Shown here one piece after another: positions 1,432-5,310 of a DNA stretch of 45,625 bases. The DNA is from Chlorobiaceae bacterium (GTDB taxonomy: Bacteria; Bacteroidota; Chlorobiia; Chlorobiales; Chlorobiaceae). The position numbers and the translations under genes were made by a program. Where the stretch lies: NCBI GenBank assembly GCA_013334925.1, contig JAAXWP010000007.1, forward strand, positions 17,704 to 63,328. Reading direction: 5' to 3'. The notes under the pieces were generated by a model. The model did no database searches and had not been told where the DNA came from. It was given only the letters and a program-made list of their open reading frames with translations. Every line of letters begins with the position of its first letter. Within the stretch, counting starts at the first letter, position 1.

Positions 1432-1460
1432 ATAACAATTGTTAATTATTCTATCAAATA
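1432..1460 (+). repeat. TAACAATTG element, copy 1
   Basis: It contains the 12-bp perfect palindrome TAACAATTGTTA at 1433-1444, followed by ATTATTCT and an AAA run. It is the copy nearest the cytochrome-porin gene, about 95 bp upstream of that ATG. It shares its left palindrome and the ATTCT part of the right flank with the other copies. An operator role is inferred. Confidence 0.6.
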
Positions 1461-1510
1461 ATTGAGCGCACTTAAAGTGCTATCCACTTACGCGCAAATG
1501 CTTAAGTACA

Positions 1511-1538
1511 GTAACAATTGTTACTTTTGTGCACAAAA
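1511..1538 (+). repeat. TAACAATTG element, copy 2 (double palindrome)
   Basis: Two perfect 14-bp palindromes lie side by side: GTAACAATTGTTAC (1511-1524) and TTTTGTGCACAAAA (1525-1538). The right palindrome explains the GCACAAAA tail seen in copy 3. This is the most symmetric copy. Two abutting dyads suggest paired dimer binding sites, which is an inference. Confidence 0.65.
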
Positions 1539-1540
1539 AC

Positions 1541-1569
1541 ATAACAATTGTTGATTATTCTGCACAAAA
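1541..1569 (+). repeat. TAACAATTG element, copy 3
   Basis: TAACAATTGTTG at 1542-1553 is followed by ATTATTCTGCACAAAA. It begins exactly 30 bp after copy 2, close to three helical turns, so both copies would face the same side of the DNA. Confidence 0.6.
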
Positions 1570-1998
1570 AAAGCGCCGGAACCATCAACACAGCATACCT
1601 TTGGTGGTCAGCCTCTGGAAGCACTGGATGTATATGTGTATAGAGATAAACAGGTATCAAGACAAGAAGAGCTCAACCATTCCTGTATCACATCATGATT
1701 CCGGGCGGGTGGGATAGTACCCGGACAACCAGGACTTGACAGATTGCTGTTCCTGCGGTGAAATCGGGAAACTCGATTCGTCTCCTTCAGTGACAGCAGG
1801 TCTTGCGGATTGAGCGTGAATGAAAGGCCATTACATCATCATCGGATCCCGTACCGTACGCACCATGAACCAGAGACTTTTGCCTGATGTGCGTTCGGTG
1901 TTTCGGATTTCTTTAACAGTGGATCAGGGAAGGAGTACCGCTTCATGCCAAATTACCACTGTACTTATGGCCTTCTTGACTAATTGTATGAATAAAAG

Positions 1999-2026
1999 TT
2001 AACAATTGCAAACATTCTGCATAAAA
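1999..2026 (+). repeat. TAACAATTG element, copy 4 (degenerate)
   Basis: TTAACAATTGCAA is followed by ACATTCTGCATAAAA. The left dyad is imperfect, but the right half (TTCTGCAnAAAA) matches copy 3 well with one gap. It lies about 430 bp from copy 3, just beyond the 3' end of the Sel1 gene, where a site for that gene's own promoter would not be expected. Confidence 0.5.
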
Positions 2027-2603: not shown

Positions 2604-4748
2604 TCAGAAACTCTGGGTGATCCCGATATTGAACGAACGCCCCTGGCCGGCAAGTGCCTCGAATGCTGTCGTCTTCTTGCTGTCAAGAAAATCGTCATAA
2701 TTGATACCGCCGAGCGGGAGATAGTAGAATCCATCAAACAGGTTCGTAATCCCCACATCCACCCTCAGGTTCTTGTACTGATAGCTTGAGCCGATATTGA
2801 CCAGGAGGTAACCTGGTGTTTCCGGTTCGAACCGAAGCGGGTCAACTTCACTTTTCCTGGTGACGAACTGCATTTCGACGGTATTGGTCCAGCCAGAGAG
2901 CTTCTGTTCCAGAGCAACCCTTGCATTCAGCGGCATCATGTGATACAGCCCGTCCCCGTTCGAGAGATCGATTCCATGAACGTAGCCAAGCGTACCGTAA
3001 ATTCGTCCATCTCCCAATCCCTTGCTTTGCCAGAGCCCCAGCGATCCCGATATATCTATACCGTAAAGCTCGGCATTGTGGTTGGTGAACTGAAGGATGT
3101 TTCGAACTTCATTACCGGGTGCACTGAAGGCTCTGCTCCCTATTTTTTCCACGTCGATATAATCGTGAACATGCGTGAAATAAGGCGTTATCTTCAGCTG
3201 CCAGTTGTTTCGATCTTTGTCCCGCCACTCTCCTGAAACACTGAAGGTATGCGCAATTTCAGGCTTCAGTTCCAGGTTGCCGACATAGCCGTTACCATCG
3301 CCAGACCAGCCGACCATTCCACTCGTCATCCAGGTGGTCGACCATGCGTACCGCTCATAAAGATTGGGTGAGCGAGTTTTTCGCGAGTATCCGAATTCGT
3401 AACTCGATGCATCATCTGCCTGGTACTTCACCAGTGCGGAGACATCCCAGTTGCTGTCGCTCTTTGCATGATCCTGGGCATTGAAGGCGTTTGCCACGGT
3501 CGCATACATGGCAGCACTTGAATAGCCCTGCACATTTCCGGTATCCATCCGGACCTGCTCATTGCGCACTCCGAGAATCGTGGTCACGTTTTCTGCCGGG
3601 TTCCCTTCCCACTCTGTAAAAAACGCATAACGGTCACGATAGCCGTGATTGATGTTCACGAAGGTGTTTGGCCACATGCTGGTACCGATGACCGGGGGCC
3701 AGCGATCGTTCAGGCTGAAACGATGGAACTCGTTACCTAATCTGAGGATGTTGCTGTCGTTGATGTTGATGTCCGTTTTGATGGTGTAACCAAGCGACAC
3801 TCCCCTGGTTATCATCGGCATGTAAGGCATGGATACCGGCGGACGAAGCGCAACAGGTAATTTGTCATCACCTGAATCCATCTTGTGCCAGGTGTTCTGC
3901 CAGTATCCGGTGACATCGACTTTTCCCCAGTCGAAATTTCCCTGATATGCAAGATTCGTGAAGGTCGAATTGTTCTTGACCATGTCCATCCACTGGTTGA
4001 CGAATCCCTGACCCGGAATGAACTGGTTTCCGGCCTTGAGCGTCACCTGATGGTTGTCGGACCTGGCCGAGAGCGTCAATCCGAGGTTTCTCGACTCGTA
4101 ATAGGTGGAGGTTATCTTGTTGCCATGGCCATCCCTGGAATCATCTGCGTGATCGATCGAACCCGTAATGCCGAGACTCAGGTGCCTGCTGGCAACGGTA
4201 CCTCCAAAAGAGGCGCCTGTCGCATGATTGTTGCTCCTGTAATACGTTGAAACGACCCCTTCGCTCCGGATGCCTTTGTCTTCTACTGCGAAAAGCGGAG
4301 GTTGGGACTCGACCTGGATCATCCCTCCGATACTGTCACCGCCCTTGCTGACCTGTGTCACTCCTGCATTGACATAGATATTGCCTACGCTCGAACTCGG
4401 GATGTAGGAAAGCGGTGGATTCATATGATTTGCACACGCCGAGCAGACAATCATGTTGTCGACATAGATCAGCAACCGGTCATCAGCGAGACCATTGATG
4501 ACGGGAAGGCTCGACACTCCCCCTCCTGTCTGAAGACTCACTCCTGCTTCATCGGTCAGCAGAGATGCCGTATCGCTCGATTTGAGCTTTTTGGCGGATG
4601 TTGGCGTTATTTTTTTCTCGGTCTGCCCCTGAACGATAATCTCTTTTCCCTGAAAATCTGCCGTAAATGCCGTAGCCGGTGCGGCAGCGATGGCGATAAG
4701 CAGTGAAAGGGTCGAGATATCTCTATACAATCTTTTTGAACCGCGCAT
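2604..4748 (-). CDS. TonB-dependent receptor, OprC/NosA-like (copper)
   Basis: This 714-residue outer-membrane receptor has a signal peptide (about 1-30), a plug domain (about 35-150) and a 22-strand-type barrel ending in the terminal Phe signature QSF. In the plug, residues 102-112 read CSACANHMNPP. This matches the region of the OprC/NosA copper receptors in which Cys, Met and His residues bind copper; Met-rich MPYMPM further on would suit the same ligand. I therefore infer energised copper uptake or copper delivery across the outer membrane. No TonB/ExbB/ExbD genes are in the window. Upstream and co-oriented, 154 bp away, is a small Cys-rich membrane protein of a type often found beside TonB receptors. 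A terminator follows the stop. The substrate is inferred from the motif only. Confidence 0.8.
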   Translation of the reverse strand: MRGSKRLYRDISTLSLLIAIAAAPATAFTADFQGKEIIVQGQTEKKITPTSAKKLKSSDTASLLTDEAGVSLQTGGGVSSLPVINGLADDRLLIYVDNMIVCSACANHMNPPLSYIPSSSVGNIYVNAGVTQVSKGGDSIGGMIQVESQPPLFAVEDKGIRSEGVVSTYYRSNNHATGASFGGTVASRHLSLGITGSIDHADDSRDGHGNKITSTYYESRNLGLTLSARSDNHQVTLKAGNQFIPGQGFVNQWMDMVKNNSTFTNLAYQGNFDWGKVDVTGYWQNTWHKMDSGDDKLPVALRPPVSMPYMPMITRGVSLGYTIKTDININDSNILRLGNEFHRFSLNDRWPPVIGTSMWPNTFVNINHGYRDRYAFFTEWEGNPAENVTTILGVRNEQVRMDTGNVQGYSSAAMYATVANAFNAQDHAKSDSNWDVSALVKYQADDASSYEFGYSRKTRSPNLYERYAWSTTWMTSGMVGWSGDGNGYVGNLELKPEIAHTFSVSGEWRDKDRNNWQLKITPYFTHVHDYIDVEKIGSRAFSAPGNEVRNILQFTNHNAELYGIDISGSLGLWQSKGLGDGRIYGTLGYVHGIDLSNGDGLYHMMPLNARVALEQKLSGWTNTVEMQFVTRKSEVDPLRFEPETPGYLLVNIGSSYQYKNLRVDVGITNLFDGFYYLPLGGINYDDFLDSKKTTAFEALAGQGRSFNIGITQSF

Positions 4749-4902: not shown

Positions 4903-5310
4903 TCAACCTGCGGTATATGCTGAATGAAGTTCCGGAGGTTGCTCAATGCGGGGATACATGCCTTCGGTCAGCGCCGTTGCGCGAAAAGCAAATACGGCCA
5001 CAAATCTCATACCGGGCAATGGCAGACTGTGGCAACATGGTTCAAGTCCGGGCATTGGATCCGGAAACGATGACTGCGGTTTGCCCGAAGCAGTTTTGTC
5101 GACTGGTTCCTGTCGCTTCTCATCGACAGAAGCGAGCTTCTTGTTGAGAAAGCAACGTCCGCAACACCCTTTTACCTTCTTTTCGCAAGCCATCGCCGCA
5201 ATTGCCTTCCGGTTCATGGCAAAAAGCCCGTAGTACACCGCCACGCAGTTTATCTGCGCGAATATTCCTGCAAGCAGCAGAAAGAGGATGCAGTGTTTCA
5301 CTGTAACCAT
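4903..5310 (-). CDS. Small Cys-rich membrane-associated protein beside the copper receptor
   Basis: This 135-residue protein has one hydrophobic N-terminal segment (about 8-30). The following part, ending CEKKVKGCCGRCFLNKKL (Cys at 42, 49, 50, 53), is a pattern I know from uncharacterised Bacteroidetes/Chlorobi proteins encoded next to TonB receptors and metal transporters. A second pair, CCH, sits near residue 92, and a Pro-rich IEQPPE motif near the end is also typical. No enzyme domain is visible. The spacing of Cys and His suggests metal binding or disulfide chemistry outside the membrane. It precedes the copper receptor on the same strand and is likely co-transcribed with it, so an accessory role in copper handling is a reasonable but untested inference. 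Confidence 0.65.
   Translation of the reverse strand: MVTVKHCILFLLLAGIFAQINCVAVYYGLFAMNRKAIAAMACEKKVKGCCGRCFLNKKLASVDEKRQEPVDKTASGKPQSSFPDPMPGLEPCCHSLPLPGMRFVAVFAFRATALTEGMYPRIEQPPELHSAYTAG

Follow-up and report, generated by a model that had tools for sequence, protein, structure and literature searches.

A 14-bp palindrome upstream of a Cyc2-like gene is most likely an operator of a regulon specific to the Chlorobiaceae

The DNA analysed here, referred to as the window, is a 45,625-nt stretch of the genome of a Chlorobiaceae bacterium, and a Cyc2-like cytochrome-porin gene lies on its minus strand at 79–1338. The encoded protein (419 aa, with a beta-barrel) has an N-terminal helix, from which a signal peptide was inferred, and a single CxxCH motif whose C39, C42 and H43 are invariant. 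Its AlphaFold model, of moderate confidence (mean pLDDT 57.9), contains approximately 16 strands, and a fold search with this model retrieved porins, the best being OmpU (E 7.4e-11); among the Pfam and NCBIfam models no match was found. As judged from the model, the protein would thus combine the features of a Cyc2 cytochrome-porin, namely a signal peptide, one N-terminal CxxCH and a porin-type barrel, and in these same respects the gene resembles the Cyc2 genes of photoferrotrophic Chlorobium. Its relatives were found in Chlorobiaceae or Chlorobiales MAGs, with one partial match in Acidobacteria, and cyc2 homologs occur in approximately 40% of freshwater Chlorobium mOTUs (PMC8125076).

Next to it on the minus strand is a Sel1-repeat protein gene (2075–2455), whose position upstream of the cyc2-like gene is conserved in three related loci (L018, L019 and L020); its product looks secreted, ends in a CxxxCxCxC motif and has weak similarity to MerG. 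Further along on the same strand are a TonB-dependent receptor gene (2604–4748), copper/haem-receptor-like with a TIGR01778 match (E 3.5e-32) far below the cut-off, and, upstream of it, a gene (4903–5310) whose Cys-rich 135-aa product belongs to no known family. The two are possibly a metal-uptake pair adjoining the cyc2-like gene.

Four copies of a palindromic element are spread over 580 bp ahead of the cyc2-like gene. Searching with TAACAATTGTTA at up to two mismatches found positions 1433, 1512, 1542 and 2000 and no other place in the window, and scanning with the 14-bp consensus defined below returned the same four places, which bears out the count of four given by the sequence-only reading. 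The first predicted operator, O1 (1432–1445; TTAACAATTGTTAT on the minus strand, one mismatch), starts 107 bp before the cyc2-like start codon. The perfect palindrome GTAACAATTGTTAC forms predicted operator O2 (1511–1524), 186 bp before the start codon, and is abutted by a second perfect palindrome, TTTTGTGCACAAAA, at 1525–1538. Predicted operator O3 (1541–1554; TCAACAATTGTTAT on the minus strand, two mismatches) is located 30 bp from O2, start to start, and 216 bp before the start codon; this pair of copies 30 bp apart and the double palindrome of copy 2 are both as had been described earlier. Predicted operator O4 (1999–2012; TTTGCAATTGTTAA on the minus strand, two mismatches) is found 674 bp before the start codon, directly past the Sel1-repeat gene. 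In the window alone the excess over chance is modest, with four TAACAATTGTTA places against 0.92 expected and four reached in 1 of 100 shuffles, and it is overwhelming across the family. Between O4 and the proximal operators, approximately 550 bp (1445–1998) hold no convincing gene, and a search of the intergenic region against Rfam found no RNA family at E ≤ 0.1; like spacing occurs in relatives, with sites near −550 to −750. This stretch could hold a distal promoter or a small RNA.

The conserved unit was found to be the 14-bp palindrome TTAACRATYGTTAA, with an extended consensus of TTAAC-N4-GTTAA, which was derived from near-matches to AACGATTGTT in the window's own genome together with the orthologous loci. 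Information across 110 unique contexts is limited to these 14 bp, of which the central AT is fixed and the outer TTA/TAA are strongly conserved, and the flanks carry nearly none; these contexts were chosen at ≤1 mismatch to TTAACRATYGTTAA, so that the core values are circular and the flat flanks are not. Of the element of about 28 bp with a tail that had been proposed initially, the repeated palindrome therefore stands, as a unit of 14 bp, and the tail falls outside it. The TTCTGCACAAAA-like tail matches well between copies 3 and 4 (TTTTRTGCAGAAT, minus strand), where it occupies 1557–1569 beside O3 (TTTTGTGCAGAAT) and 2014–2026 beside O4 (TTTTATGCAGAAT), loosely at copy 2 and hardly at copy 1. 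It is missing at the remaining sites of the genome and the flanks carry almost none of the information, and it was therefore rejected as a part of the operator. On the minus (coding) strand the hexamers TTGATA, TTGTGC, TTGTGC and TTATGC start 12–13 bp before O1, O2, O3 and O4, respectively, which is where a −35 element would be expected were the spacer and the −10 region occupied by the operator. The trinucleotide TTG has maxima at −12 and −10 in the 110 oriented contexts, which include orthologs and are thus not independent, and a promoter scan gave a weak signal (three found, 1.6 expected). By their placement the tail hexamers may represent a −35 region; the tail TTTTGTGCAGAAT beside O3 is possibly one, and the minus-strand TTGTGC of the palindrome at 1525–1538 could be such an element as well.

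To follow the sites in orthologous loci, up to 850 bp upstream of each of 19 Cyc2-like genes were scanned. Sites with ≤1 mismatch were present upstream in 15 of the 19 loci (28 sites, against 0.05 expected from shuffles), and at ≤2 mismatches a site was found in all 17 loci having at least 843 bp of upstream sequence, the remaining two having approximately 160 bp only. Three of the loci (L135, L152 and L158) had been fetched for an exact site, so the unbiased count is 12/16, with the window included. In the closely related L020, a site aligns with each of O1, O3 and O4, and the positions relative to the start codon are kept in register (−105, −201 and −675 in L020 versus −107, −216 and −674 in the window). 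The proposal that the array perhaps controls the cyc2-like gene thus gains support from comparative evidence, which points to this gene as a likely target. An operator with one mismatch (L048, G000:C31:11855) is located about 5.8 kb to the left, outside the window, between a c-type cytochrome gene and a cupredoxin-like gene, so that the cyc2-like gene may be part of a larger controlled electron-transfer cluster. No account of cyc2 cis-regulation in this group was found in the literature searched; PMC5498476 cites FixK control of the pio genes of Rhodopseudomonas palustris, which are unrelated to cyc2.

At the genome-wide level, TAACAATTGTT has 17 matches in the window's own genome, both strands counted, against two for the reversed pattern. 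At least one exact site is carried by 78 of the 86 Chlorobiaceae genomes, many of which are drafts; the sum is 180 sites against nine reversed-pattern controls. Exact sites are lacking in all 12 genomes that represent three further families of the order. At ≤1 mismatch there are 711 sites against 101 reversed controls in the 84 genomes carrying the candidate regulator gene described below, compared with 11 against 15 in seven outgroup genomes. As to position, 45 of the 46 exact sites examined are intergenic, and the last one lies inside an over-extended ORF start. The palindromes do occur in several copies per genome and are clustered in places, which would suit the small mobile repeat that the sequence-only reading had offered as an alternative. 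Nevertheless, only the 14 bp are conserved, with unrelated flanks and no conserved body with boundaries, the sites sit at gene starts, and they keep an equal distance from orthologous genes across species; a MITE-like origin was thus rejected as highly improbable. Given their over-representation in the genome and the family relative to the controls and their placement at the starts of orthologous genes across species, the palindrome is most likely the operator of a conserved regulon specific to the family Chlorobiaceae, as the operator-array reading had it.

Genes repeatedly found beside the sites encode DUF4395 proteins, divergently oriented cystathionine-type PLP enzymes, TlpA-like thioredoxins, FadL-type porins, Lcl_C-domain proteins, MOSC proteins, c-type cytochromes and Cyc2, and the DUF4395/cystathionine-type loci often have two sites approximately 125 bp apart. 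An AsrC/Dsr-like sulfite reductase gene lies beside a site in two genomes, and an arsenite oxidase small subunit gene (TIGR02694, above cut-off) in one. The neighbour survey also found a sulfate-binding protein gene beside a site in one genome, and in a forward test of this gene, with 24 usable loci from genomes with the candidate regulator gene, 14 had a site between −226 and −246, against 0.005 expected. Based on the neighbouring genes and this test, sulfur assimilation and alternative electron donors appear to be placed under one predicted operator, and most likely an iron-oxidation-type gene shares its switch with genes for sulfate uptake and sulfur amino acids. Small Gly/Cys-rich lipoproteins ending in GVGGGGCGCN and paired with repeat-rich outer-membrane-type proteins were observed at L038 and L059 (G000:C5 and C74); at L038 this cassette, which is recurrent in the regulon, comes after a TlpA gene with an operator.

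The loose resemblance to BlaI/CopY sites (TACAnnTGTA) that had been remarked on, which consists in the ACA-N2-TGT core, is not borne out: compared by site alone, the outer TTA/TAA are conserved here and A, not T, precedes ACA, the consensus being TTAACRATYGTTAA and in extended form TTAAC-N4-GTTAA, which does not match a BlaI/CopY operator. FNR sites read TTGAT-N4-ATCAA, and a CRP/FNR-family regulator acting on TTAAC-N4-GTTAA would account for the five-base half-sites and the N4 spacer. However, the half-site differs, and a CRP HTH domain exceeds the cut-off in just two of the 61 Chlorobiaceae genomes scanned, although all 14 control genomes score and the sites are nearly universal. With the protein missing where the sites are present, such a regulator is refuted for most of the family and is scarcely credible as a general explanation. 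The literature searched, from which most subscription papers are absent, yielded no description of this operator or regulon.

The sequence-only reading had named no regulator family, and an XRE-like candidate is now at hand: a 108-aa HTH protein, with a site 84 bp before its gene in the window's own genome. Its resemblance to the XRE/Cro type is weak (HTH_3, 22.1 bits with a cut-off of 23, E 1.6e-4; Cro, 20.4 bits with a cut-off of 32.7), the helices of its structural model (pLDDT 73.8) fit an HTH core, and a fold search with the model found nothing at E ≤ 0.001, the weak matches including HigA, C.Esp1396I and P22 c2. Four cysteines, Cys5, Cys88, Cys90 and Cys91, are shared without exception by the 30 orthologs compared. 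Nothing relevant on COG2522-type HTH proteins, on Fe-S XRE regulators or on Chlorobi regulons was retrieved from the literature searched. The nearest known parallels are the operators of the P22 c2 and 434 repressors, likewise 14-bp palindromes with an A/T centre, which are bound by an HTH dimer as is proposed here, the P22 half-sites being TTAAG-N4-CTTAA. The 434 and P22 c2 sites require a compressed minor groove at these A/T centres (PMC3711457). In contrast, the half-site here is TTAAC, the regulon is chromosomal and made up of metabolic genes, and the candidate HTH protein carries a Cys near the N terminus and a CxCC near the C terminus and lacks a significant fold match. A site within approximately 330 bp upstream of the HTH gene exists in only 2 of 30 loci, and autoregulation was therefore dropped as a means of identifying it. 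In all neighbourhoods inspected (L065–L094) the HTH gene is divergent from a gene for a haem-binding (c-type, CxxCH) membrane protein, and the next gene is ResB-like in the window's genus and BshC-like in the other genus.

The HTH gene is present in 84 of 86 Chlorobiaceae genomes and absent from all 12 outgroup genomes, a pattern that any family-specific gene would show, so the losses are the informative cases. Both genomes without it (G060 and G085) retain the flanking BshC-like, haem-binding and trpG-like genes with nothing HTH-like between them, that is, clean deletions. Each has a single near-site, the lowest count, against three or more in each of the remaining genomes, and the two lowest counts would fall on both HTH-less genomes once in 3,655 random placements. 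Sites relate to controls as 2:7 in the genomes without the HTH gene versus 711:101 in those with it (Fisher p 1.6e-5), both figures ignoring phylogeny. In a BshC tree, G060 is joined with G084, which keeps the HTH gene, at a support of 1.0, and G085 falls outside with weak support; two independent losses are therefore probably the most parsimonious history. In the aligned DUF4395 promoters, the operator reads TTAACAATTGTGAA in G084 and G001 but TTAAAAAGTCTTAA in G060, where it has decayed beside a retained gene, whereas the sister G084 keeps both gene and operator. The sulfate-binding-protein gene, which has an identical weak site in G060 and G084, is neutral and does not discriminate. One genome with the HTH gene, G047, has no one-mismatch excess (3:4), its exact sites numbering three against one control.

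These observations bear on whether the same regulon might be read by another protein, for example of the Rrf2, ArsR or MarR type, the HTH gene having been lost coincidentally or as a member of the regulon. The co-loss, for which HTH gene and site counts were compared, amounts to two events, and the HTH gene is rarely autoregulated, both of which leave room for such a protein. On the other side, the two probably independent losses coincide with the two lowest site counts of 86 genomes, and in G060, unlike in its sister, an operator has decayed beside a kept target, so we regard another regulator as unlikely, though well short of negligible. As a separate observation, the weak site upstream of the sulfate-binding-protein gene and a control match are identical, at identical distances, in the G084 and G060 loci (L181 and L187) despite a BshC difference of approximately 9%, and the sulfate-assimilation cassette could have been transferred recently.

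Taken together, we favour, with a probability of roughly 0.6, the reading that the palindromes are operators of a Chlorobiaceae-specific regulon controlled by a dimer of the XRE-like HTH protein, which is relieved of repression when sulfide is scarce and then serves alternative donors and sulfur assimilation. The dimer would bind directly to the two TTAAC half-sites of TTAAC-N4-GTTAA, and its sites near −35/−10 would make repression, rather than activation, the expected outcome. At the cyc2-like gene, several dimers on the four sites over 580 bp would block the promoter region, and control would be made tighter by having several sites, two of which are separated by approximately three helical turns. 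The sensor would be the cysteines, responding to sulfide, persulfide or Fe-S state; with sulfide or reduced sulfur scarce, their state would change and the HTH protein would leave the DNA, whereupon Cyc2 and arsenite oxidase would be expressed along with the genes for taking up sulfate, for reducing sulfite and for trans-sulfuration. Published studies describe sulfate assimilation in photoferrotrophic Chlorobium and an inability of 'Ca. C. masyuteum' to oxidise sulfide (PMC8302410, PMC5498476), from which we infer that sulfide scarcity is the most natural signal. The same operator and HTH regulator might instead respond to oxygen, iron or a general redox signal, or act by activation. The invariant cysteine cluster could hold an Fe-S cluster, and sites in the window's own genome lie near cydA, NDH-2, sucC and genes of the 2-oxoglutarate-dehydrogenase and succinate-dehydrogenase types, which would be as compatible with a general redox signal as with sulfide. 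These respiratory-type sites, identified in this genome, carry 1–2 mismatches, however, and the most repeated and best-conserved targets are those for sulfur assimilation and electron donors; a different signal or mode of action is accordingly a serious contender that falls somewhat below even odds.

Under the sulfide-scarcity reading, the operator shared by cyc2 and sulfur-assimilation genes suggests how green sulfur bacteria may choose between sulfide and Fe(II)-type donors. The motif can be used for regulon prediction in other Chlorobiaceae genomes, and the 14-bp operator with its 108-aa regulator candidate makes the question of donor choice testable. More tentatively, and rather less probably than its opposite, the system could be a family-wide master switch, in which a new small HTH regulator senses sulfide (or persulfide or Fe-S state) through its Cys/CxCC residues and jointly controls Fe(II)/arsenite-type donors and sulfur assimilation. 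If true, this switch would decide between sulfide-based and sulfide-free photosynthesis.
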